Shown in pieces: positions 13,010 through 29,792 of a stretch of DNA of 64,000 nucleotides. Numbering within the stretch: position 1 is the first letter of the stretch; every line of letters begins with the position of its first letter. Below the pieces are notes generated by a model. It made no database searches. It worked only from the letters and a program-made list of their open reading frames with translations, and was not told where the DNA came from. Made by a program: the position numbers and the translations under genes. This DNA is from Arcticibacter svalbardensis MN12-7 (lineage in GTDB: Bacteria; Bacteroidota; Bacteroidia; Sphingobacteriales; Sphingobacteriaceae): positions 1 through 64,000 of the forward strand of contig NZ_AQPN01000110.1 of the NCBI RefSeq assembly GCF_000403135.1, in the 5' to 3' direction.

Positions 13010-15588
13010 ATGTCTATACTTCTAATAATCAAAAATACGAGATTCGAGTTCCGGACTGTCATAGTTTTAATTCTAACGTTTGCCTGTTTGAATAGCTCTA
13101 GTCAAACTGCAAACCAACCATTAAAACTTTGGTATAACTCGCCAGCTCAGGCTTGGGAAGAGGCCTTGCCTTTGGGAAATGGAAAAACCGGAGCAATGGT
13201 TTTTGGGAAAGTATCAGAAGAATGCATCCAATTAAACGATAACACGTTATGGTCTGGTTCTCCAAATCCCGGAAATAATCCTAACGGACCAACTGTTTTG
13301 CCCGAAGTAAGAAAGGCGATTTTTGATGGAGATTATACAAAAGCTACTGAACTATGGAAAAAAATGCAAGGCCCTTATTCTGCCAGGTATTTGCCTTTAG
13401 GCGATCTTAATTTGTATTTTAATGCCCAAGATAATTTGGGTAGAAACTACCATCGTGAACTTGATTTAAAAACGGCTATAGTTAAAGTAAGTTATGAGTT
13501 AGACGGTGTTAAATATACCCGTGAGGTTTTTACCAGTTATCCGGATAAATTATTGGTGGTAAAAATTACTGCCAACAAAAAAGCGGTCCTTGATTTCGAA
13601 ATCGGCCTAAGTAGTAAGTTGCGTTATCAAGTAAGCTCAAGCCCAAATCAAGAAGTTAAATTGACAGGTAAAGCACCAAAATATGTAGCCAACAGAGATT
13701 ACGAGAAAGTTCAAATAGCTTATGATGATGATGGCGGAGAAGGGATGACTTTTGAAATATTAGCCAAGGTTAAAAATGATGGTGGAAAAGTTTTAAACAA
13801 GAACGGAAGAATTGTTGTGACAAATGCGAATTCGGTCACCATTTATCTCACTGAATCAACAAGCTTTAATGGTTTTGATAAATCTCCAACATTAGAAGGG
13901 AAAAATCCAGCAATCGAAACACAGCTGAACATGCAGAAAGCCTTAGCTAAAAGCTTTGAAGAATTAAAGTCAGCCCATATTAAAGATTATCAAAATCTTT
14001 TTAACAGGGTGAGTTTTAATTTAAATAATAGTGAACCAGCAGAGAAAAAACAACCAATGAAAGATTAAAGAATTATACAGAAGCAGATCAGGGTTTGCAA
14101 GTTTTATATTATCAATTTGGACGATATTTAATGATTGCTTCTTCTAGGCCGGGCTCAAGACCAACAAATCTACAAGGCTTATGGAATGATCAGGTACAGC
14201 CACCTTGGGGCAGTAATTATACCATGAACATCAATACCGAGATGAATTATTGGCCAGCAGAAAATGCTAATTTATCAGAATGCCATCAGCCTTTATTTGC
14301 TTTTATTAAAGAGCTTTCTATAAATGGTGCTCAAACCGCAAAGATAAATTATAACATCAACCAAGGTTGGGTGTCGCATCATAATTCAGATTTATGGGCT
14401 AAAACTTCTCCCACGGGCGGTTATGATTGGGATCCGAAAGGAATGCCACGTTGGTCTGCATGGCCGATAAGTGCATCCTGGTTAAGTACGCATTTATATG
14501 AACATTATATGTTTACGGGCGATAAAGAGTTTCTAGCAAAAACAGCTTATCCGTTAATGAAAGGCGCTGCTGAGTTTATGCTGCATTGGCTAATTAAAGA
14601 TCCAAATTCAGAGTACTTAATTACCAATCCCTCTACTTCTCCAGAAAACACGGTTAAAATTGACGGAAAAGAATATCAGCTATCCATGGCATCTACAATG
14701 GATATGTCCATTTTAAGACAGCTTTTTACAGATATTATTCGTTCCTCAGAGATATTAAACATCGATGAAAGTTTCAGAAAAGAATTAATATCAGCTAGAG
14801 CTAAACTTTATCCTTTCCATATTGGGCAATATGGCCAGTTGCAAGAATGGTTCAAAGATTGGGACGATTCAAAAGATGCTCATCGTCATATCTCGCACTT
14901 GTTTAGTCTTTTTCCTGGCGATCAAATATCTGTGTTCCATACACCCGAGCTTGCAAAAGCGGCCAAACAATCTTTGATTTTTAGAGGAGATGTAAGTACT
15001 GGTTGGTCTATGGCCTGGAAAATTAATTGGTGGGCGAGGCTACAAGATGGTAATCATGCGTACCAAATACTACAAGATGCTTTCCGTTATATGGATCCGA
15101 AAGAGGAAAAAGCTGAAATGAGTGGTGGGGGAACCTATCCGAATCTCTTTGATGCTCATCCACCATTTCAAATTGACGGGAATTTTGGTGCAACGGCAGG
15201 TATTACCGAGATGTTACTGCAAAGTCAGGATGGAGTTCTTAATTTATTACCTGCCTTGCCAGATGCCTGGGCTAATGGAAGTATTAAAGGAATCAAAGCT
15301 CGTGGAAATTTTACAGTAGATATCAGCTGGAAGAATGGTAAATTGGAACAATCTAAAATTCATGCTGTAATAGGAGGAGATTGCCAACTGAGAACAGCAG
15401 TCCCGGTAAAAGTGCTGGAAGCAAAAATTTTAACGACACCTAACGCTAACCCTTTATTTGTATCACGTTTTGTTCCATCTTTTGAAGTAGCAAAAACACC
15501 AACAGTTGATTGGGCTATTGAAAAAGGATATTTAATTAATTTTAAAACTGAAAAAGGAAAAACGTATACAATTGTTCCAGCGAAATAA
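13010..15588 (+). pseudogene. GH95 alpha-L-fucosidase, frameshifted at an A-run
   Basis: The 5' part (13010-14068) has a signal peptide and the GH95 N-terminal beta domain (LWYNSPAQAWEEALPLGNGK, then NDNTLWSGSP). The 3' part (from about 14050 to 15588) has the (alpha/alpha)6 catalytic barrel: [20 protein letters not shown] carries the conserved Asn residues, [10 protein letters not shown] the catalytic Glu, [11 protein letters not shown] the conserved Asp. The two frames meet in GAGAAAAAACAACC near 14045. One extra A would give a continuous [20 protein letters not shown]. So either one base was lost in A6, or it is a sequencing error. GH95 removes alpha-1,2-linked (also some other) L-fucose or L-galactose by inversion. 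Second gene of the PUL, after the HTCS. If the shift is real, the enzyme is dead. Confidence 0.85.
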
Positions 15589-15637
15589 TTTTTTTCTAAT
15601 ATTTATCCAGTTAAATGAAGATGATTTTTATTTTATC

Positions 15638-17014
15638 ATGAAATATATACTCTATTTTTTACTCTTTTTTACTTGCAGTTTCAGTAGCAATGCCAAAGAT
15701 ATTTACGTTGCAAAATCCGGTAACGATCAACACTCAGGGAGCTTAAATAATCCATTTGCTACGCTTTACCGAGCGCAGCAAGAAGCCAGGAAGTTAAAGA
15801 ATGATCCAGTAAATATCTACATCAGGAAAGGGGACTATCATTTATTGAAACCCCTGGTTTTTGCAGACACAGATAGTAGAGAAGCTCATGCTGGTTTGAG
15901 AATAATGCCTTATAAAAATGAGAATGTCACTATTAAGGGTTCTCAAAAATTGGATTTAAAGTGGAAACTGAAAAATGGGATATACCAAGCCTTTGTGACA
16001 GATAAATCTTTAAAGTTTGATGAGCTATACGTAAACGGAAAACTGATGCACATGGCTAGGTATCCAAATTATGAAGAAGGTAAACTTCCGTTTGGAGGAG
16101 CGTCAGCAGATGCAATTAGTCAGGAAAGAGTAAAGAAATGGAAAAACCCTAAGAATGCATATCTACATGCAATGCAATCGAGTATGTGGGGAGGATTTTC
16201 GTTCCTTATAACCGGGAAAGAGAATGACTCGACATTGAAAATGGAAGGAGGTTGGCAAAATAACAGGTCTGCTATTCATATACAATACCGTTTTGTGGAA
16301 AATGTGTTTGAAGAATTAGATACACTGAACGAGTGGTTTTTTAATAGGAAACAACAACGGTTATATTTGAAATCGAATCAAAATCCTTCCCAATTAGTTG
16401 TTGAAACACCGCAAATAGAAATGCTCATTGAGTTTAAAGGGAATAAAAGCCCTGTAAAGGACATCACTTTGCAGGGGCTTAAATTTAGCCATACGCTCAG
16501 AACTTTTATGAAGAACAAAGAACCTCTTTTACCTAGTGATTGGACAATTTACCGTAAAGGAGCAATTACGCTAGAAAATGCCGAAAATATAAAAAGTGAA
16601 AAATGCGAACTCACCGATTTAGGTGGTAATGCTATTGTATTCAGTTATTTTAATAAGAATAATACGTTATCTGGATCTCACATTTACAATGTTGGTAGCA
16701 TTTCACCCGATTTAAAATTAAAAGCAAAAAAAGCATCCATTCCAAAAATCCTTCCCTTGATATGGAAAACTGATGACACCTATGATTTCGCTGGAGTACG
16801 TGTTAAAAACTTATCCACACTTGCAGAAAGATCTGCAACAGGAATGGCAACCGAAACCGGCGTTCTGGTTTTAGATGTTTCCGCAAATAGCTTAATGAGT
16901 GGCAATATAAAACCTAATGATGTTATTTTGGATATAGCAAATTTTCCCATCGCCAACATTAAAAATTTGGTGGACGCCAGACTAAATCTACAAGCCAGAA
17001 AAACGGCTCTATAA
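15638..17014 (+). CDS. Secreted right-handed beta-helix protein with C-terminal PDZ-like domain (GH141-like), apparently shortened
   Basis: ATG 15638 gives a clean signal peptide (MKYILYFLLFFTCSFSSNAK); the frame also runs upstream over the GH95 end. KDIYVAKSGNDQHSGSLNNP is the usual start of Bacteroidota beta-helix enzymes of the GH141 / related groups (fucosidase or xylanase). The N-terminal half, through SEKCELTDLGGNAIVFS, follows that family. After HIYNVG (about residue 350) it jumps directly to a C-terminal region AGVRVKNLSTLAERSATGMA ... TGVLVLDVSANSL, which reads like a PDZ domain. Family members as I know them are about 600 residues or more, so some 150-250 residues of the helix core appear to be missing without loss of frame. 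Function of the shortened product is doubtful. Confidence 0.65.
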   Translation: MKYILYFLLFFTCSFSSNAKDIYVAKSGNDQHSGSLNNPFATLYRAQQEARKLKNDPVNIYIRKGDYHLLKPLVFADTDSREAHAGLRIMPYKNENVTIKGSQKLDLKWKLKNGIYQAFVTDKSLKFDELYVNGKLMHMARYPNYEEGKLPFGGASADAISQERVKKWKNPKNAYLHAMQSSMWGGFSFLITGKENDSTLKMEGGWQNNRSAIHIQYRFVENVFEELDTLNEWFFNRKQQRLYLKSNQNPSQLVVETPQIEMLIEFKGNKSPVKDITLQGLKFSHTLRTFMKNKEPLLPSDWTIYRKGAITLENAENIKSEKCELTDLGGNAIVFSYFNKNNTLSGSHIYNVGSISPDLKLKAKKASIPKILPLIWKTDDTYDFAGVRVKNLSTLAERSATGMATETGVLVLDVSANSLMSGNIKPNDVILDIANFPIANIKNLVDARLNLQARKTAL

Positions 17015-19051: not shown

Positions 19052-20230
19052 ATGAATCTATTAAGAATTTCAGGAGCTTTAATTTTATTTACAAGTGTGA
19101 TTTCTTGTAGTCCAAAAGTTAATGTCCATAAGGCAGTAAGAAACGCTGAGCATCAAACAGATCTGATGTTAAAAGAAATAACCAATAAAAAGGCTACTAA
19201 AAGTATGAACTTGGTATCACCACGTACACTAGAAAACGGAGAACTTAAGTTAGTGCCTTCTAAAGATTGGACAAGTGGATTTTTTCCTGGCGAGCTGTGG
19301 TATTTATACGAGATGACAAAAAATGAGAAATGGAAAACAGAAGCCATGACTTATACCGCACAAATTGAGCAAGAAAAAATGAATAGCACTACACATGATA
19401 TGGGTTTTAAAGTGTATTGTAGTGTAGGAAATGGATATAGATTAACTAAAGATGAGCACTACAAAAATGTAGTGATACAAGCTGCTAAAACATTAAGTAC
19501 TCGTTTTAATCCAAATGTTGGTGCTATAAGATCGTGGGATCACCATGAAGACGAGTGGGGTTTTCCTGTGATCATAGATAATATGATGAACCTAGAATTA
19601 CTTTTTGAAGCTACAAAACTTACTGGAGATTCGACCTTTTACCAAATTGCAGTTGCTCATGCCAATACCACTATGAAAAACCATTTCAGAGCAGATTATA
19701 GTACTTGGCATGTAATCAGTTATAATCCCGAAACCGGAAAAGTTGAACATAAAAATACCCATCAAGGATATAGCGATGCTTCTGCATGGGCTCGCGGACA
19801 AGCTTGGGCGATTTATGGATATACTATGTGCTACAGATATACCAGAAATGATAAATATTTGAAACAAGCAGAACATGTGGCCACTTTTATATTTAACAAC
19901 AAGAATATGCCTAAAGACTTGGTGCCATACTGGGATTTTGATGCTCCCGGAATTCCAAACGAGCCTCGGGATATTTCTGCTGCAGCCGTTATTGCCTCTG
20001 CATTATTTGAACTAGCAGGTTACAGTGCGAATAAGACCGATTATTTAGCTAAAGCCAATAGAATTTTATCAAGCATCCAAAATATGTATAGTTCTCCGAA
20101 ATCAGGTAATAAAGGTTTTATTTTAGACCACAGCACTGGTTCTAAACCATCAGATAGTGAGGTGGATGTTCCTCTTTCTTACGCGGATTATTATTATTTG
20201 GAAGCATTAGTTAGAAAGCAAGGAAAATGA
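19052..20230 (+). CDS. GH88 unsaturated glucuronyl hydrolase, lipoprotein
   Basis: 392 residues with a lipoprotein signal (SVISC, Cys19). The (alpha/alpha)6 barrel has the GH88 motifs WTSGFFPGELWYLYE, HDMGFKVYCSVGNGYR with Asp116, FPVIIDNMMNLELLFEA with Asp176, and SDASAWARGQAWAIYGYTMC. The two Asp positions match the catalytic pair of unsaturated glucuronyl hydrolases. These enzymes remove the 4,5-unsaturated uronic acid that polysaccharide lyases leave at the non-reducing end of oligosaccharides. Its presence implies a lyase in the same pathway and a uronic acid in the substrate. Last gene before the SusC promoter region. Confidence 0.92.
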   Translation: MNLLRISGALILFTSVISCSPKVNVHKAVRNAEHQTDLMLKEITNKKATKSMNLVSPRTLENGELKLVPSKDWTSGFFPGELWYLYEMTKNEKWKTEAMTYTAQIEQEKMNSTTHDMGFKVYCSVGNGYRLTKDEHYKNVVIQAAKTLSTRFNPNVGAIRSWDHHEDEWGFPVIIDNMMNLELLFEATKLTGDSTFYQIAVAHANTTMKNHFRADYSTWHVISYNPETGKVEHKNTHQGYSDASAWARGQAWAIYGYTMCYRYTRNDKYLKQAEHVATFIFNNKNMPKDLVPYWDFDAPGIPNEPRDISAAAVIASALFELAGYSANKTDYLAKANRILSSIQNMYSSPKSGNKGFILDHSTGSKPSDSEVDVPLSYADYYYLEALVRKQGK

Positions 20231-20500: not shown

Positions 20501-23500
20501 ATGAGTACTAACGTCATTGGAAATCTATCATCTAACTCCGTTTGGGTTAGAGTGAGATTGTTATTTAGCATCATCTTTTTATTAAGTATGCTATTTAGTT
20601 TTAAATTATATGCTCAAACACCTACAAAAATAACTGGTGTAATTAAGGATGCAATAGGCGTTACTTTGCCAGGTGTGACCGTAAAAGTAAAAGGTGCTCA
20701 AAACACCACACAATCAGATTTAAATGGCGCATTTACTATAAGTGTGCAAGATAAATCAGCTACACTTGTGTTTACTTATGTTGGTTTTGCTACTAACGAA
20801 GTAAAAGTTGGAGATAAATCAACCCTGAATATTGTTTTACAGGAAAGTGTTAATGATTTAAATGAGGTGGTTGTTACAGGGTACGGGCAAACCGCACAAA
20901 GAAAAAATTTAACAGGTTCACAATCTTCTGTAACTGAAAAAGATATTGAGGAAAGGCAACCGGTAACTCTTTTTGATGCCTTACAAGGTCAAGCATCTGG
21001 AGTTTCAGTTGTAAATGATAATGGAGACCCGTTTGGTCAAGGTACTATCCAAATTCGCGGTGCTTCATCAGTTAATGCTACTGGCGTAGGGCCACTATAT
21101 GTAATTGATGGAATTATCAGCGAGGATGCAAACTTTGTAAGCCCCCAGGATATTGCATCTATTGAGATTTTAAAAGATGTGGCATCAGCATCTATTTATG
21201 GTGCTAGGGGAGCAAATGGCGTAATTTTAATTACTACTAAAAGAGGTAAAGAAGGCAAGCCAACTTTGGGTTTGCAGTACACTTATACTTTAGGAGAACT
21301 TTCACATAAAATTCGTACTACCTCTGCAGATGATCTAAGATATTATAGAAGGGTTAGAGGAGGCGATACTGGCTTTGGTGGGAATGTGGATTCGGTAAAT
21401 CCGTATTTAAACGCAGACAATGATTTTCAGGATTTATTATTTAGAACATCAAAAAAACAAATTGTTAATTTAAGCCTAAGTGGTGGGCAAAAAGGGATGA
21501 CTTATTACGCAGGTTTAAACTATTTGGATAACCAAGCTTTAATTATAAATAGCTATGCTAAACGTATTCAATCGAAAATTAACGTTACGTTTGAGCTTTC
21601 TCCAAAATTAACCATCAGTAATAACTTAGGGTTTGCTTATCAAACCGGGAATGTTATAAATATTGGAAATTCTGCTAAACAAGTTTTTGAAAGAAATCCC
21701 TGGACTAGTTTGTATGCACCGGATGGGTCCCTCTCAACGTATTCCGAATCAAAACGGAATCCTGTAGCTTATGCATTGCTCGACAAAAATGTTGATAATG
21801 ATTATTTAACTCAGTTTAATACGCAACTTAAATATAAAATATATAAGGATTTAACATTTACTACACAATTAAATGCACAAGTGAGTAATGATAACAACCG
21901 AGAGGTTACTCCCGGTTATTTAAATAGCTCAAGTACAAATATTTCCATTGGAACAGGATCAACAGAAAGAAAAGTTTATTGGGAAACGCAAGGTTTTTTC
22001 AATTATAATAAAACCATTAATGAAGACCATGTAATTTCTGGAGTATTGGGTCTTACTGCTGATAGAAGAAGAAAAGATACTTATGAGTTTAGGGCAACTG
22101 ATTTATTGAGTGATGAAATTTTCACTTCTAACATTGGTACCTTAGATCCTTTAAAAACAGGAACTTCTGCTACGGCAAATTCTAATGCATCTATTTTTAG
22201 CCGACTTTCTTATAGTTACAAAGGCAAATATATTGTACAAGGATCTGTTAGAAGAGATGGTTCTTCAAGATTTGGTGAAAACAATAAATACGGTAATTTC
22301 TTTTCTGGATCCGCATTGTGGCGTTTCTCAGAAGAAAAATTCATGAATTTTGCCAATGGTGTTCTTGATGATGGAAAGCTAAGATTTAGTATAGGTTCTG
22401 CAGGAAATGATGCCATAGGAGATTACCTATCATATACCGTTATGAATTTTGGAGGTAACTATTATAATGGATACTTAGGAGCAGCAGAAAATTCTACGCT
22501 AGGAAACTCTTTGATCAAATGGGAGACTTCTACCTCCAGCAATTTTGGTTTAGATTTAACTTTCTTAAAAGGACGTTTGTCTTTTACTGCTGAATATTAT
22601 GATAAGACCACTAAAAATCTTTTGTACTCTGCTGAGTTATCTAAAGAAACTGGTAAATCTCAGGTGGCAATTAACTTAGGAACAATCCAAAATAAAGGTC
22701 TTGAGTTTACCGTATTAGGATCTCCGGTTGCCAACAAAGACTTTGGTTGGAACATAAATGCTAACATTACGTTTCCACAAGGAAAAATTAAAAAGCTTGC
22801 AGACGGCACCTCTTTTATTACTGGCAGTAAATGGTTAGTACAAGAAGGAGGAAAAATTGGCGATTTCTACCTGTTGATCAATAAAGGAGTTTATCAATAT
22901 GATGTTTCTAATGCTTATACGCCAGATAATCAGAAGTTAATGCCTGTGGATGTGGTAGTTAGTGACGATAAGAAAACTGTGGTTAGCGTTGGGGGATATA
23001 CCCTAAACGGACAACCTTACACAGGTACTATAACTAAAAAATATTATAATGGTGTATTGTTGCAAGGAGGAGATACTGAGTGGCAGGATACAGATAATAA
23101 TGGCAGTATTGATGATGAGGATAAGGTAATTGCAGGGAATGGTTTACCAAAATATTATTTTGGTTTCGGCAATACTTTCCGCTATAAAAAAATCTCAATA
23201 GACTTTTTATTTAATGCTCAGTTTGGTAATGATATATATAATACTGTTGCTAACAGTCAAAATTCCCTAGGGTCAACTTACACTCCACCAATATGGGACG
23301 CAGCTACAACTTCATGGTCAAGACAAGGGGATATTACTAAATTTCCTAATGCAGTAATGAAAGATACAAGAGGAAGTATCAGAGCCGGGTATAATAGCAT
23401 GTATTTAGAGGATGGTTCATTCATCAGACTAGCAAGTGCAAGGTTTACTTATGCTTTAGATTCCAAGGTCATTAAAAAAGTAGGAATAAAAGGTGCTAAT

Positions 23501-23653
23501 GTTTATGTATATGGCCAAAACTTAGTAACATGGACAAATTACAGTTGGTACGATCCGGAATTTAGTACTAGTAATCAGTTACAACCAGGTAACGATACTG
23601 GTAGGTATCCAAAAGTAAGAGAGTTTGGTTTGGGTCTTAACATTACATTATAA
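20501..23653 (+). CDS. SusC/RagA-family TonB-dependent outer-membrane transporter
   Basis: 1050 residues: signal sequence ending at YAQ, a carboxypeptidase-regulatory-like domain (ITGVIKDAIGVTLPGVTVKV, about 45-125), the TonB-box/linker LNEVVVTGYGQ, a plug domain (DALQGQASGVSV ... IEILKDVASASIYGARGANG), and a C-terminal beta-barrel ending in REFGLGLNITL with a terminal hydrophobic residue. SusC proteins form the outer-membrane channel that imports oligosaccharides under a SusD lid using TonB energy. It lies 11 bp before susD and defines the locus as a PUL. Confidence 0.97.
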   Translation: MSTNVIGNLSSNSVWVRVRLLFSIIFLLSMLFSFKLYAQTPTKITGVIKDAIGVTLPGVTVKVKGAQNTTQSDLNGAFTISVQDKSATLVFTYVGFATNEVKVGDKSTLNIVLQESVNDLNEVVVTGYGQTAQRKNLTGSQSSVTEKDIEERQPVTLFDALQGQASGVSVVNDNGDPFGQGTIQIRGASSVNATGVGPLYVIDGIISEDANFVSPQDIASIEILKDVASASIYGARGANGVILITTKRGKEGKPTLGLQYTYTLGELSHKIRTTSADDLRYYRRVRGGDTGFGGNVDSVNPYLNADNDFQDLLFRTSKKQIVNLSLSGGQKGMTYYAGLNYLDNQALIINSYAKRIQSKINVTFELSPKLTISNNLGFAYQTGNVINIGNSAKQVFERNPWTSLYAPDGSLSTYSESKRNPVAYALLDKNVDNDYLTQFNTQLKYKIYKDLTFTTQLNAQVSNDNNREVTPGYLNSSSTNISIGTGSTERKVYWETQGFFNYNKTINEDHVISGVLGLTADRRRKDTYEFRATDLLSDEIFTSNIGTLDPLKTGTSATANSNASIFSRLSYSYKGKYIVQGSVRRDGSSRFGENNKYGNFFSGSALWRFSEEKFMNFANGVLDDGKLRFSIGSAGNDAIGDYLSYTVMNFGGNYYNGYLGAAENSTLGNSLIKWETSTSSNFGLDLTFLKGRLSFTAEYYDKTTKNLLYSAELSKETGKSQVAINLGTIQNKGLEFTVLGSPVANKDFGWNINANITFPQGKIKKLADGTSFITGSKWLVQEGGKIGDFYLLINKGVYQYDVSNAYTPDNQKLMPVDVVVSDDKKTVVSVGGYTLNGQPYTGTITKKYYNGVLLQGGDTEWQDTDNNGSIDDEDKVIAGNGLPKYYFGFGNTFRYKKISIDFLFNAQFGNDIYNTVANSQNSLGSTYTPPIWDAATTSWSRQGDITKFPNAVMKDTRGSIRAGYNSMYLEDGSFIRLASARFTYALDSKVIKKVGIKGANVYVYGQNLVTWTNYSWYDPEFSTSNQLQPGNDTGRYPKVREFGLGLNITL

Positions 23654-23664
23654 TTAAAATAATC

Positions 23665-25215
23665 ATGAAAAAAATAGCATATATCATTACCTCATTATTT
23701 CTAGTTACCAGTGTAACTAGTTGTAAAAAGTTTTTAACTGAAGAACCATTAAGTCAGGTTGCAACTCAAAATTATTTTAAATCGCTAAAAGATGTAAATG
23801 CTGCGATGGCAGGTATTTATGGTTCCTTTCAAACTGAGATGACGGGTCAAGGCGGAACATCTAATTTCACTGGAAAGTACAACTATTGGGGCGAGGCTAG
23901 GTCAGATAATTTTGATTCGCACCCAAATTATAATAATAGTACAGTACGTGAATTGGTAACAAACTCACTGACTTCTACAAATTCTACTTCAGATTGGACT
24001 GGACTTTATAGAACTATTGGGAGAGCAAATACTGCCATAAAATATATTCCACAAGCAGCTAGTTTAGATAATACCTTAACAACAGATCTAAGAGATAACA
24101 ATTTAGCACAATGTTATGCTATGCGGGCAATCTGTTATTTTCAGATTATACGCTTATGGGGCGATGCACCAATTTGGACAGAACCTTATGAAGATTTTAC
24201 TCAGGACGATGAAAGAGAAAGAATTTCAGCAGATAAAATAATATCGGATATTATTATTCCTGATTTGGAAAAGGCTTATGCTTTAACTAAAAAAAGTCAA
24301 ACCCCCAATGTATGGCTAATAGGCGAGGGAGCAATTGCAGCAGCTATGGCAGATGTTTATATGTGGAGAGCAGGTACACAGTCTCAACAAGCTGATTATG
24401 ATCAAGCTATTGTTTGGTTTAAAAATGTCTTTAAAGCAAAAGCACCTTCGGGTAAAGTTTACGGAGGAACAGTAATTAGTGATTTAGAAACAGCCGGAGA
24501 TTGGAAAAATAAATTATTCTTAGATCCAAAACTTTCAAAAGAAGCCATTTGGAGTATTTACTGGGATCCTACGAATAATGGTTGTGCCTGTATTCCGGTT
24601 TCCATAGGTGGATCAAATAATAACATCAGAATTGATTCTGTATTGAGTGCAACATGGAGAAAAGATAAAACAGATTTAAGAGTAACTCAAACCATTGATA
24701 CAATAGAAGCTGTGGGACGATATGATAAGCTGTTGAAATATTATAATGTTCCTGCTGCTGGTTTTCTAGGCAATACTCAAGCTGCTACAACATTTCCTGT
24801 TTATTTAGTAATGTATAGGCTGGGAGATGTTTATCTGTCATACGCAGAAGCATTAAATAAAACTGGTGCAAAAGCAGACGCTCTTAAATATTTAAACTTT
24901 ACTAGACAAAGATCTGGTTTGGTAGCTTATACAATTGCAAGCCCAGCTTATGCAAACATGGATATCATGGAGGATGCTATTTTAGAAGAAAGGCGCTACG
25001 AGCTTTTTGGAGAAGGAAAAAGATGGTTTGATTTGGTTCGTACCAAACATGTGAATAAAATTATGGATCCGGTAATCAACAGAAGATTGACTAAAATTCA
25101 AGGTTTGTCTTATACTGATGGTTTTGGAACTGAAGTAGGTAAATATTTGTTTCCGATAAATAGAAATGTTTTAGAGGATAATAAAAAATTAATTCAAAAT
25201 CCATTTTATCTATAA
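23665..25215 (+). CDS. SusD/RagB-family glycan-binding lipoprotein
   Basis: 516 residues with lipobox SVTSC and the family start KKFLTEEPLSQVATQNYF. It has SusD TPR-like helices (NNLAQCYAMRAICYFQIIRL WGDAP region) and the C-terminal signature ILEERRYELFGEGKRWFDLV. SusD proteins cap the SusC barrel and bind the glycan at the cell surface. It is co-transcribed with susC upstream and the FAS1-type lipoprotein downstream. The pairing is specific to each substrate, but the substrate cannot be read from sequence alone. Confidence 0.97.
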   Translation: MKKIAYIITSLFLVTSVTSCKKFLTEEPLSQVATQNYFKSLKDVNAAMAGIYGSFQTEMTGQGGTSNFTGKYNYWGEARSDNFDSHPNYNNSTVRELVTNSLTSTNSTSDWTGLYRTIGRANTAIKYIPQAASLDNTLTTDLRDNNLAQCYAMRAICYFQIIRLWGDAPIWTEPYEDFTQDDERERISADKIISDIIIPDLEKAYALTKKSQTPNVWLIGEGAIAAAMADVYMWRAGTQSQQADYDQAIVWFKNVFKAKAPSGKVYGGTVISDLETAGDWKNKLFLDPKLSKEAIWSIYWDPTNNGCACIPVSIGGSNNNIRIDSVLSATWRKDKTDLRVTQTIDTIEAVGRYDKLLKYYNVPAAGFLGNTQAATTFPVYLVMYRLGDVYLSYAEALNKTGAKADALKYLNFTRQRSGLVAYTIASPAYANMDIMEDAILEERRYELFGEGKRWFDLVRTKHVNKIMDPVINRRLTKIQGLSYTDGFGTEVGKYLFPINRNVLEDNKKLIQNPFYL

Positions 25216-25223
25216 TTATTGAT

Positions 25224-25925
25224 ATGAAAAGAATATATAATAATATTGCAAAACTAGTAGCTATTATCATAGCTACTAGTACTTTCTACGGTTGCTCTCT
25301 AGTAGGTTTAGATGTACAAAAAGATTATGATAGGGTAACTCATACTTTAGATCCAAATTTAAATATTAACGTATGGGACTATTTAAAGCAACGGTCTCAG
25401 GGGACTTTGGCAGAAGATCAAATATTTACAAATATGATGGATGCCATTGCTTATGCAGAGATAGACTCTAACGAATATAAAAAGCCAGGAAGGACATTTA
25501 TTCTGATACATAATATTGCTGCAACAGATTTCTTTAAAAATGTAAAGGTCAACAATGTTGTAGGTACATCTTTTCGTAGTTACCCTAAAGAGTTTGTGAA
25601 AAACTATTTAAGTTACTTGATTTTAGATGATGGTGTATATGATCATTATACTCTTCCACCTTATACAACTATTCACGCCACTACATTGGCGCCTGCGGGT
25701 TATTTTAATGCCTTACCTACAGGTGTTACGATGCTTAACTTTGTCGCAAATACTAATCCGCAGTCTTTGATGTATATTAAAGTACTGGATGCTTCAGCTG
25801 GTAATACCTCAGATTTCCCTATTCAATTGAATGATGCACTTAATGCAAGAACAAGTAGTCTTTTGGCAACAAACGGATCTATCCATGTAATAGGAGCAAG
25901 GTTGATACCTTCTTTACCATTGTAG
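25224..25925 (+). CDS. Fasciclin (FAS1)-like surface lipoprotein in SusE position
   Basis: 233 residues with lipobox STFYGC. LNINVWDYLKQRSQGTLAED followed by QIFTNMMDAIAYAEI, and the C-terminal ARTSSLLATNGSIHVIGARL, follow the FAS1 domain pattern (the final NGxIHVIxxxLIP motif). FAS1 lipoproteins directly after SusD are seen in Bacteroidota PULs where SusE/SusF-type binding proteins would otherwise sit, and are assumed to bind glycan or hold the outer-membrane complex. It is 8 bp after susD and is followed by a hairpin, so it probably ends the susCD transcript. The binding role is inferred from position only. Confidence 0.75.
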   Translation: MKRIYNNIAKLVAIIIATSTFYGCSLVGLDVQKDYDRVTHTLDPNLNINVWDYLKQRSQGTLAEDQIFTNMMDAIAYAEIDSNEYKKPGRTFILIHNIAATDFFKNVKVNNVVGTSFRSYPKEFVKNYLSYLILDDGVYDHYTLPPYTTIHATTLAPAGYFNALPTGVTMLNFVANTNPQSLMYIKVLDASAGNTSDFPIQLNDALNARTSSLLATNGSIHVIGARLIPSLPL

Positions 25926-26000: not shown

Positions 26001-26084
26001 ATGAATTTGAATTTTGTTAATTAAAGATTACCTCCTAAATACATCGTGTTCATCTATCATAAAAATTTAGGTCAAGTGAAAAAC

Positions 26085-27308
26085 ATGTTAGTCAGAATAA
26101 TTTTTTTACAATTTATTTTATTGTGTAATGTGGCTGTTGCACAAACCTTAGTAGTAGAGAAAACTGATGGTCCTGTTACCAAAAATGAGATTTCGGCATT
26201 TAAAAGCTTTATCAAAGGCTATAACCCTAATGATTGGCAAATAGGCGGAAATATATGGGTGTTTGGTGCGCCCGGAAAAGCGATAGAGGCTTGTGGCTTG
26301 ATGTATGAAGCTACCCAAGACCCAGAAATACTAGATCGGATGATTTTTTATTGTGATCGAGCTTTAGCAAGTCGCAATGATTTAGCACCGGCTAATATTG
26401 GAGGGCAATTGAAAACTTGGACAGGTAATATAAATCCAGTTTGGCCATCTAATCGTACAGTACCAGCAGGAGCAGGAATAGAGCAAGGGTCGGTTTTAGC
26501 TCATTTAGCTTTTTGCTCAAAATTAATTCTGCAAAATCCGTCTATTTGGAATAAAGAAGTTGGGATCGGAGATGCTCACCATTTTGGAGCTACTTATAAA
26601 GAAAGGGCATTGAAATATATTCAAGAGGCAGATTATGTGATGGATAAATGGATTATTCCAAATTTTGTTCGCATAGCTGATCGAAATCGTTTGTACTTTC
26701 CGGGTGCTCCAAATACTTACAAACCCAATGAACCCGCACCGTGGAATCAATTATTTATGGTCACAAATGGTCTCATCAGGCTAACGGAATGCCATTTTCT
26801 TTTGAAAGACCAAACGGATAGAGTTAAAAGATACGACGAAATTGTTCAGCCTAATTTAGATTGGTTTTTATCATCTCTAAAAAAAGACACCTCCGTATTA
26901 AATACTCCAGTTTACCAGTTTGATTACGCAATGGGTTCGAGATCTGAAGATGCCAATCATTTTGCTTATGATGTTGAAGGACTTTGGATTGCTTACAACA
27001 CTGGTAGATATGGAATTAAATTTAACGACTTAATACCATTTGCCAATACTTACGTAGATGTGATTTTAGCCAATAAGCAAGCTAACGGAAAATTTATCGG
27101 AATGCTGAATGGCAAGAGCACAACAGGCAATATGGGTGGCGATAATTATGTGCGTGATGAATATTTTTACCTTGCTGATTTTAGACCAGATAAATTTGAG
27201 TTAATGGTTGATATTAACCAAAAAGCGAATAATGTGGCTAGTTTTTTACCTGCAACAGCTCGTATTTTATGGCAAAAAAACAGAAGATACAAAGCTTCTT
27301 TAAAGTAA
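26085..27308 (+). CDS. Secreted PUL enzyme candidate of helical-barrel type (paralogue 1; possible polysaccharide lyase)
   Basis: ATG 26085 gives a signal peptide (MLVRIIFLQFILLCNVAVAQ); the frame is open upstream from GTG 26046. The mature protein (about 385 residues) is rich in amphipathic helices with recurring Trp/Tyr, consistent with an (alpha/alpha) barrel. Blocks conserved with its paralogue at 28233-29792 are IWVFGAPGKAIEACGLMYEA, NTYKPN..APWNQ.FMVTNG, NHFAYDVEGLWIAYNTGRY and YVRDEYFYLADFR. His/Tyr/Arg-rich invariant blocks are what a lyase active site would use. PL38-type lyases came to mind, but I cannot confirm any family. The GH88 gene in the locus requires a lyase, and no classical lyase is present. 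Confidence 0.55.
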   Translation: MLVRIIFLQFILLCNVAVAQTLVVEKTDGPVTKNEISAFKSFIKGYNPNDWQIGGNIWVFGAPGKAIEACGLMYEATQDPEILDRMIFYCDRALASRNDLAPANIGGQLKTWTGNINPVWPSNRTVPAGAGIEQGSVLAHLAFCSKLILQNPSIWNKEVGIGDAHHFGATYKERALKYIQEADYVMDKWIIPNFVRIADRNRLYFPGAPNTYKPNEPAPWNQLFMVTNGLIRLTECHFLLKDQTDRVKRYDEIVQPNLDWFLSSLKKDTSVLNTPVYQFDYAMGSRSEDANHFAYDVEGLWIAYNTGRYGIKFNDLIPFANTYVDVILANKQANGKFIGMLNGKSTTGNMGGDNYVRDEYFYLADFRPDKFELMVDINQKANNVASFLPATARILWQKNRRYKASLK

Positions 27309-28143
27309 GATAAAGCAGTTCAGAAATCATCGCTCATTAAAACCATTCTTTATAAAAAAATAGATAGTTTAGATTTAAAACTTCACTGCTATTATCCCAC
27401 AGGATACGACAATGGCAAAATATATCCAGCCATATTACTTTTTTTTGGTGGCGGTTGGACCAGTGGCAGCATTGATTAGTTAATACCTCAGGCTAAATAC
27501 TTTGCTAAAAGAGGTATGATTGCCATACTTGCAGATTACAGGGTGTTTTCGAGAAATAAAACCAGTCCTTTCGAAGCCGTAAAGGATGCAAGGTCTGCCA
27601 TGAGATACATTCGTATCCATAGCGAAGAATTGCAAATTGACACCTCAGAAATTGTCGCTTCTGGAGCTTCTGCAGGAGGGCATTTAGCTGCTGCATGCGA
27701 TCTGATTGCTATAGATGAGGCACGCGAAGATAAAAGTGTTAGTACTAAACCTGCTGCATTGGTTTTGTTTAATCCGGTAGTGGATAATGGTCCAGGAGGA
27801 TATGGTTACGAACGAATTGGAGATAAGTACCACGTGTTTTCACCATTTTATAATATCAAAGTTGGCGCTGCACCAACCATCGTGTTTTTTGGAAAAAAAA
27901 GACAAATTTGTACCCGTTAAAACCGCTAGGTTATATCAAAAAAAAATGAAAGCTGTAGGTAGCGAATGCCATTTATATCTCTACAAAGGGCAGGAGCATG
28001 GCTTTTTTAATTATTGTGAAAATCAAGACCCCAAATATTTTATCGAAACCATGTTCAAAGCGGATGTTTTCTTAAGAAAGCAAGGTATTATAAAAGGTAA
28101 ACCAACTATCAAAGATTTAAGTTTTTTGTCGAAAAAAAACTAA
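27309..28143 (+). pseudogene. Alpha/beta-hydrolase (BD-FAE/acetyl-esterase type) pseudogene
   Basis: Coding begins in frame right after the stop of paralogue 1 with no ATG or signal peptide: LYKKIDSLDLKLHCYYPTGY, then LLFFGGGWTSGSID, a TAG where relatives have Gln, then LIPQAKYFAKRGMIAILADY and the nucleophile elbow VASGASAGGHLA. Near 27893 an A8 run (seven expected) shifts the frame. Removing one A restores FFGKKDKFVPVKTARLYQKK and the catalytic His in GQEHGFFNY. Three separate lesions (no start, nonsense, frameshift) make this a true pseudogene rather than a single sequencing error. Its ancestor probably deacylated the target glycan. It separates the two paralogues. Confidence 0.85.
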
Positions 28144-28232: not shown

Positions 28233-29792
28233 ATGCAAAAAAAACAGTTGATTGTTGTTGGGCTAGTATTGGCTCAGTTTGCGTTCTATGGTTGTAAAAA
28301 AGCAACTGAAGTAACATCTCCAGAACTATTACCCGGTCAAAAAAATCAAACAAGTATTTCTTCTGGTTCCTTGGTTGTTGAAAGCTTAACAGGACCGATT
28401 ACATCAACCGAAATTTCAGCTTTTAAAACTTATATGGCTGACGTAAGTACGCCTAGCAATAACGATCAAAATACCTGGGTATTTGGCAATCCTGGTAAAG
28501 CAATTGAGGCATGTGGTTTAATGTACGAGGCTACTTTTGATATTAACATTTTAAATCGAATGATTTTTTATTGCGATGAGGCATTATCTGGACGAAATGA
28601 TTTAGCAAGTGTGGGAGACGGCGGACAAAGAACACTTTGGACGGGGAATATAGAGCCTGTTTGGCCCTCTTCGGGAACTGGAGTGAGCCCAGCGCAAGCA
28701 GGTGTAGAGCAAGGACAGGTATTGGCACATTTAGCATACTGTGCGAAATTGATTTTGCAAAACCCTGCTATTTGGACTACTACTGTATCCATAGGCGATC
28801 CCTATAGTTATGGGACTAATTATAAAGCCAGGGCTTTAAAGTATATTTCAGAGTCAGATTATGTGATAGATAATTGGATTATTCCAAATTTTGTTCGCGT
28901 ATCAGATAAAAAACTTTACTTTCCGGGTTCTCCAAATACTTATAAACCGAATGGAGCAGCACCGTGGAACCAAATGTTTATGGTAACTAATGGATTGATT
29001 CGTTTGGTACAATGCCATGTAATTCTGAGCGATGCCGCGACTAGAGTTACCAACTATGATAGTATTGTACAGTCAAACATCGATTGGTTTAAGGCAAACT
29101 TAACATCCAATACCTCGGTAACGGGTTCGGCATGTTGGAACTGGAATTATGAACTTACAGGGGGCACAGAAGATACTAACCATGCAGCTTATGATGCCGA
29201 GGGAATGTGGATTGCATACAATAGTGGCAGATATAGCATGAGTCTTAATGATATTAAATATATGGCAAATACGTATTTCGATTTGGTTTTAAAGACAATA
29301 ACCGGAGGAATTTATGCAGGGAGAGTAGATGGAACCACTGGGACTGGCAATGCAAGTGGAGACGGTTATGTACGTGGCGAATATTATTATTTAGGGGATG
29401 TTAGAAAAGATAAATACTTTATAGCGGCCAATATTAACATAAGTAAAGGTTTAGTTGCAAACTCACCCGCAGTTGCCTCTAGGATATTGTGGTTAAAAAA
29501 CAGAAGATACCAAGCTGGTGACGGTGATGTGAAACTATATCAAAATTGTAGCTATACAGGTTGGAATGCAAATTTTGAGATAGGTAATTTTAACATGGCA
29601 GCATTGGTAGCAGCAGGTGGATTGAATGACGCTAATTCAGCTTTACGTGTGCCACCTGGTTTAAAAGTTACTTTATATAAAGATAATAACTACTTAGGTT
29701 CAAATGTGGCTTTTACTGCAGATGATAGTTGTTTAAGCGATAATGCAATTGATGATGTTACTTCTTCCTTAAAAGTAGAGCTAATTCCCTAA
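28233..29792 (+). CDS. Lipoprotein PUL enzyme candidate with beta/gamma-crystallin domain (paralogue 2)
   Basis: 519 residues with lipobox FYGC (Cys near residue 21), so membrane-anchored and possibly surface-exposed, unlike soluble paralogue 1. Residues about 48-428 share all conserved blocks with paralogue 1 (NTWVFGNPGKAIEACGLMYE, APWNQMFMVTNGLIRLVQC, NHAAYDAEGMWIAYNSGRYS, YVRGEYYYLGDVRKDK). Residues 431-519 add a beta/gamma-crystallin-type module with two Greek-key signatures (VKLYQNCSYTGWNANF ... LNDANSAL and VTLYKDNNYLG ... IDDVTSSL); the ND/DD-xx-S residues suggest calcium sites. Such modules can bind carbohydrate or stabilise enzymes. The pair looks like a tandem duplication with domain gain. 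Catalytic role is inference. Confidence 0.55.
   Translation: MQKKQLIVVGLVLAQFAFYGCKKATEVTSPELLPGQKNQTSISSGSLVVESLTGPITSTEISAFKTYMADVSTPSNNDQNTWVFGNPGKAIEACGLMYEATFDINILNRMIFYCDEALSGRNDLASVGDGGQRTLWTGNIEPVWPSSGTGVSPAQAGVEQGQVLAHLAYCAKLILQNPAIWTTTVSIGDPYSYGTNYKARALKYISESDYVIDNWIIPNFVRVSDKKLYFPGSPNTYKPNGAAPWNQMFMVTNGLIRLVQCHVILSDAATRVTNYDSIVQSNIDWFKANLTSNTSVTGSACWNWNYELTGGTEDTNHAAYDAEGMWIAYNSGRYSMSLNDIKYMANTYFDLVLKTITGGIYAGRVDGTTGTGNASGDGYVRGEYYYLGDVRKDKYFIAANINISKGLVANSPAVASRILWLKNRRYQAGDGDVKLYQNCSYTGWNANFEIGNFNMAALVAAGGLNDANSALRVPPGLKVTLYKDNNYLGSNVAFTADDSCLSDNAIDDVTSSLKVELIP

Follow-up and report, generated by a model that had tools for sequence, protein, structure and literature searches.

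A βγ-crystallin module is fused straight onto the C-terminal end of one of two paralogous enzymes encoded in the window, the 64,000 nucleotide stretch of the Arcticibacter svalbardensis MN12-7 genome that was analysed (contig NZ_AQPN01000110.1). The favoured reading, held with moderate confidence, is that it serves the surface-located member of this PUL enzyme pair as a Ca2+-binding accessory domain, which would tune stability or activity and possibly contact the substrate.

The module-bearing enzyme, paralogue 2, is encoded on the forward strand at 28233-29792 (519 amino acids), as defined by its open reading frame and translation and by orthologues of the same architecture (L003/L035 and L004). 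By inspection, it begins with a lipoprotein-type signal sequence to Cys21 (MQKKQLIVVGLVLAQFAFYGC; 28233-28295). Residues 45-429 (28365-29519) form a catalytic-type domain that has no assigned family and is modelled as a helical toroid. The module occupies residues 431-519 (29523-29789) and is followed directly by the stop codon (29790-29792), which gives the exact limits of the 89-residue extension described in an earlier, sequence-only reading. All of these features lie on the forward strand.

Identity of the C-terminal module

Judged by its sequence, the extension is a βγ-crystallin module of the flavollin type. A phmmer search of the PDB with the module found flavollin (3hzb, E 1.6e-15), 2kp5 (1.3e-13), protein S (1prr, 4e-12) and clostrillin (3so0, 5e-9), with lens γ-crystallins also matched after clostrillin. 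The beta/gamma-crystallin identity proposed in the sequence-only reading is thereby borne out, and the two Greek-key motifs and two calcium-type signatures on which it was based are both present. The Greek-key signatures, located by motif scan, are YQNCSYTG (residues 436-443, 29538-29561) and YKDNNYLG (residues 482-489, 29676-29699), so that the YxxxxY/FxG signature as given in PMC3551895 is found in both Greek keys. The same scan places the calcium-type motifs at residues 465-470 (NDANSA, 29625-29642) and 507-512 (DDVTSS, 29751-29768). The N/D-N/D-x-x-S/T-S motif has been described together with its Ca2+ binding, for which affinities of 4-100 µM are reported across the superfamily (PMC3551895). 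DDVTSS matches it completely, and NDANSA matches the first five positions and has Ala in place of the final Ser.

As 7% of shuffled sequences also contain two calcium signatures, these motifs by themselves are unconvincing. Two YxxxxYxG and two N/D-N/D-x-x-S/T signatures together occur in a fraction of 2e-5 of 200,000 shuffles. The two halves of the module also resemble each other (z = 5.4 over shuffles). Among 56 collected modules, both calcium motifs are kept in most, and two cysteines are kept in the flavollin-like subset. Flavollin of Flavobacterium johnsoniae belongs to the same domain family and shares the two Cys positions and the paired calcium motifs, although it is only about one-third identical to the window module. 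In the module tree, 3hzb is closest to modules that lie mid-protein in T9SS-type multi-module enzymes (GH64, L067), whereas the window module ends a lipoprotein-type protein.

With a score of 16.5 bits, the module stays below the cut-off of 25 set for the Pfam Crystall model. So, at 21 bits, does a protein whose module is placed with flavollin in the tree, and the Pfam score is therefore no argument against membership. The model has no match over the whole genome and was judged too strict for this subtype. Foldseek, run on a full-length AlphaFold model in which the module has a pLDDT under 50, placed 3hzb first (prob 1.00, TM 0.60 by target, E 0.022). The C-terminal parts of two GH29 α-L-fucosidases (PDB 9lxl and 4ni3) weakly match the translation of 29496-29789 (E 0.1 and 0.5), and a crystallin-like domain on these fucosidases is possible.

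The paralogue pair and export

Paralogue 1 (26046-27308, forward strand) has 420 amino acids, or 407 if read from the ATG at 26085, with a signal peptide of non-lipid type and no module. The two paralogues are 57% identical over 388 amino acids, all within the first 428 residues of paralogue 2, and the alignment halts where the module starts: paralogue 1 ends at ...NRRYKASLK and its stop codon, where paralogue 2 continues as ...NRRYQAGDGDVKLYQ... The extension is thus absent from paralogue 1, as first noted. Its description as present on one paralogue only holds within this genome and does not extend beyond it, since the full architecture is also found in a Mucilaginibacter and in genome G163, where all three copies of the enzyme found bear a module. 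Few cases are known in which the biochemical effect of a βγ-crystallin domain on an enzyme has been described. A 57% identical pair, with one member of lipoprotein type carrying the module and the other having neither, offers a clean test of what such a domain adds.

Within the enzyme family, 5 of 20 catalytic domains have the module, always at the extreme C-terminus. A lipoprotein-type N-terminus is seen in all five of these and in 2 of the 15 module-free members (Fisher p 0.0014, uncorrected for kinship, which inflates it, and with lipoprotein calls made by eye). The two module-free exceptions, L077 and L078, indicate that the module is dispensable for lipoprotein location. In L010 and the broken L009 gene, regions of fn3 or F5/8 type and T9SS tails stand in place of the module. 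Other module proteins in the Sphingobacteriaceae are mostly lipoprotein-like with the module last. In members of the same class it is mostly internal and followed by some 220-370 further residues; where scanned, these comprise CBM6, in some cases joined by a ricin-type lectin, and a T9SS tail. The module therefore accompanies export out of the cell, for which two routes are used. The cell-surface setting suggested earlier is plausible because, by inspection, the N-terminus is of lipoprotein type in paralogue 2 but not in paralogue 1.

Presence on exported proteins of differing activities, by two export routes, would also suit a purely structural stability cap outside the cell, in which Ca2+ adds stability and has neither a regulatory nor a binding role. 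The calcium motif has been reported to tune the stability of βγ-crystallin domains (PMC3551895). However, L077 and L078 appear to be exported as lipoproteins without any such cap, and the GH64 precedent described below involves an effect on activity, as it is cited in PMC8394091. A cap with no further role is considered quite improbable.

Distribution and partners of the module

When 251 genomes of the Sphingobacteriaceae, the window's own family, were searched, 47 gave matches, most of them covering only the module; in a sample across the phylum, 21 of 345 genomes had the module. Five further genomes from the genus of the window all lack it. In the Sphingobacteriaceae it occurs, among other proteins, on a PL20-type lyase (L011, E 2e-13), a GH18 enzyme (L029) and metallopeptidase-like proteins, as well as on a PL7-like lyase (L015) whose PL7 match (E 9e-5) is under the Pfam cut-off. 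A GH76 enzyme (L074) also carries the module. In a class-mate, L066, neighbouring GH64, reprolysin-like, GH18 and GH16 genes each combine the module with CBM6 and a T9SS tail; this four-enzyme set with a shared accessory block (7353-16038 of L066) resembles a fungal-wall-degrading set. Free-standing forms exist as well, such as a 151 amino acid secreted-type βγ-crystallin protein (L096, 7977-8432) near a relative from the window enzyme's family that bears a module.

The suggestion that such domains are rare on carbohydrate enzymes does not survive these counts. At least six types of carbohydrate enzyme, besides metallopeptidases, bear the module, and a GH64 precedent has been published. From this broad range of partners, in the Sphingobacteriaceae and in other Bacteroidota, it follows that exported enzymes repeatedly carry it as an accessory module. 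Module and fusion architecture are of a known kind, recurrent in the Bacteroidota.

The precedent is a GH64 β-1,3-glucanase of Clostridium beijerinckii with a βγ-crystallin domain (Krishnan et al. 2019, J Bacteriol 201:e00392-19, as cited in PMC8394091), the activity of which is said there to rise more than 2-fold with 1 mM Ca2+. It resembles the window protein in having this domain on a carbohydrate enzyme, but on what is cited it belongs to another catalytic family and another phylum. By analogy with this glucanase, the most likely role of the window module would be to stabilise the enzyme outside the cell and to tune its activity with Ca2+. The paired Greek keys would form two predicted Ca2+ sites. 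Paralogue 2 would be exported as a lipoprotein and presumably exposed at the surface, and paralogue 1, with neither lipid anchor nor module, would go to the periplasm. The module may in addition assist in retaining a uronate-rich glycan.

Three genera keep the full architecture, at about 60% identity. When the genome contigs were scanned with paralogue 2 alone, only the Mucilaginibacter copy was found (Mucilaginibacter sp. PPCGB 2223, G120). Such conservation is hard to reconcile with a relic, a degenerate or neutral fusion whose Ca2+ binding has gone, as might be argued from the Ala at the last position of motif 1 and from the damaged esterase, GH95 and β-helix genes in the locus. The signatures are otherwise intact, and L004 has the same Ala (NDDASA) within an intact frame. 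A relic is very improbable.

Origin of the module in the enzyme family

Two changes of module state are needed on the catalytic tree (bootstrap range 2-2), and 0 of 500 shuffles gave so small a number. In the module tree, which is built on 87 columns only, the modules of the window protein, L003 and L004 fall together (99/91) near a PL20-type module. The modules of two distant copies from G163 group instead with the GH18 module of L029 (100/99), and none of the bootstraps unites the modules of the enzyme family. The simplest reading of these trees is that the enzyme family acquired the module on at least two separate occasions, from different crystallin subtypes. The two origins within the family disfavour one ancestral fusion that was simply lost in paralogue 1; loss within the lineage may nevertheless have occurred. 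That one enzyme family has taken up two crystallin subtypes suggests a selected benefit.

The company that the window module keeps in the tree bears on the main alternative, a genuine carbohydrate-binding module that would hold the enzyme on a probably uronate-rich glycan, with Ca2+ either forming a bridge from the module to carboxylates or acting only to stabilise the fold. The window module sits in a group of 10 rows (84/84), in which the other partners are PL20-type and PL7-like lyases and one free-standing module. Its position is one where binding modules usually sit, and in other enzymes it joins CBM6 and a ricin-type lectin. On the other hand, metallopeptidases and GH18 enzymes bear the wider module family, so that no single glycan type suits all, and the enzymes with both CBM6 and the module already have a separate binding module. 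The literature searched gave no described carbohydrate-binding site in βγ-crystallins. Glycan binding as the primary role is thus regarded as rather unlikely, and behind tuning of stability or activity by Ca2+. An association of the module with enzymes of anionic glycans only is ruled out by the GH18 and metallopeptidase partners, which also speak against a role confined to anionic glycans.

A narrower proposal, and a more doubtful one, is that the subclade of the window module is a Ca2+-dependent polyuronate-recognition module of surface lyases, namely PL7-like enzymes, PL20-like enzymes and the unnamed toroid family. If it were true, Ca2+ would control, as a switch, whether acidic glycans are attacked at the cell surface.

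The catalytic domain

The catalytic domain has no sequence match in Pfam, NCBIfam or the PDB, described PL families there included, and is not assigned to a PL family; a profile search of the PDB gave chance matches only. Among viral contigs and plasmids no relative of it was found, the plasmid matches being to the module region only. In the phylum and family samples, one genome alone (G497) has this domain outside the window's family.

AlphaFold models from three sequences are helical toroids with pTM of 0.58 and 0.69 and pLDDT of 51-57, the catalytic-type domain itself giving pTM 0.69 and pLDDT 57 with AF2. With these low-confidence models, the top Foldseek rows include PL33, Smlt1473-type, PL27 and GH105 structures, none of them significant. 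In VIA-align, AGE, GH76, linalool dehydratase and GH105 structures tie at Z 15-18 among the matches listed, and the toroid matches listed there have 4-12% identity. PL27 and PL33 are absent from the best 50 rows. As unrelated toroid families tie, the fold class is supported but no single family is, and the choice of a family from the fold was dropped. The models suggest, then, that the catalytic domain is a helical toroid. Cellobiose 2-epimerases (AGE superfamily) and GH76 mannanases have an overall toroid like that of the window model (Z up to 18 over about 300 residues, with 5-12% identity at 3.6-4.9 Å).

The L-rhamnose-α-1,4-D-glucuronate lyase BACCELL_00875 of PL27 (5noa) has an (α/α)6-barrel domain and is a top-row Foldseek match of the full-length model (E 0.13, not significant). 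The PL27 pathway includes a GH105 partner. An N-terminal β-sandwich is also part of PL27 (PMC8377490), and the window enzyme seems too short to accommodate one; it is also without a sequence match to any PDB chain. The lack of described relatives in Pfam, NCBIfam and the PDB, with uronyl hydrolases as neighbours, marks the enzyme as a potential new family of polysaccharide lyases, and it may be an unclassified uronate lyase.

The locus and its neighbours

On the forward strand, a GH88/GH105-type unsaturated uronyl hydrolase is encoded at 19052-20230 (Pfam Glyco_hydro_88, 3e-14), and a SusC-like and SusD-like pair, read from translations, at 20501-25215. The locus also has two GH29 genes, a GH95 gene (by reading), a GH2 gene, a sulfatase and esterases. 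The substrates of GH88 and GH105 enzymes are unsaturated uronides, which lyases produce. The genes of the locus that were scanned include no recognised lyase family; from this and the GH88/GH105 neighbours a lyase role for the window enzyme can reasonably be inferred, and no more than that. The locus also encodes two β-helix proteins that are candidates too.

Relatives of the enzyme lie in similar surroundings. Homologous SusC/SusD pairs are near it in L099, L100, L103 and L105; a GH88-type gene adjoins it in L099, and in L103 and L104 it is accompanied by GH105. Also in the vicinity of enzyme relatives are sulfatases, GH28, GH3 and a chondroitinase-B-like gene.

Several genes of the locus are damaged. 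The esterase between the paralogues (BD-FAE/abhydrolase type, 27309-28143) is broken by an in-frame stop and a frameshift near an A8 run at 27893, and the GH95-like gene (13010-15588) lies in two frames, split around 14068-14095. Damage to these two genes suggests a decaying locus or assembly errors. One β-helix protein (15572-17014) is about 297 internal residues short, in frame, relative to its 781 amino acid homologue in L098.

A 233 amino acid lipoprotein-type PUL protein at 25224-25925 belongs to no Pfam family and is 57% conserved after SusD in L103; it is possibly a surface glycan-binding protein. Proteins of about 980 amino acids, also of no Pfam family, are encoded near members of the enzyme family in L098 (3758-6688) and L099 (6049-9027), and these are possibly further unclassified PUL enzymes.
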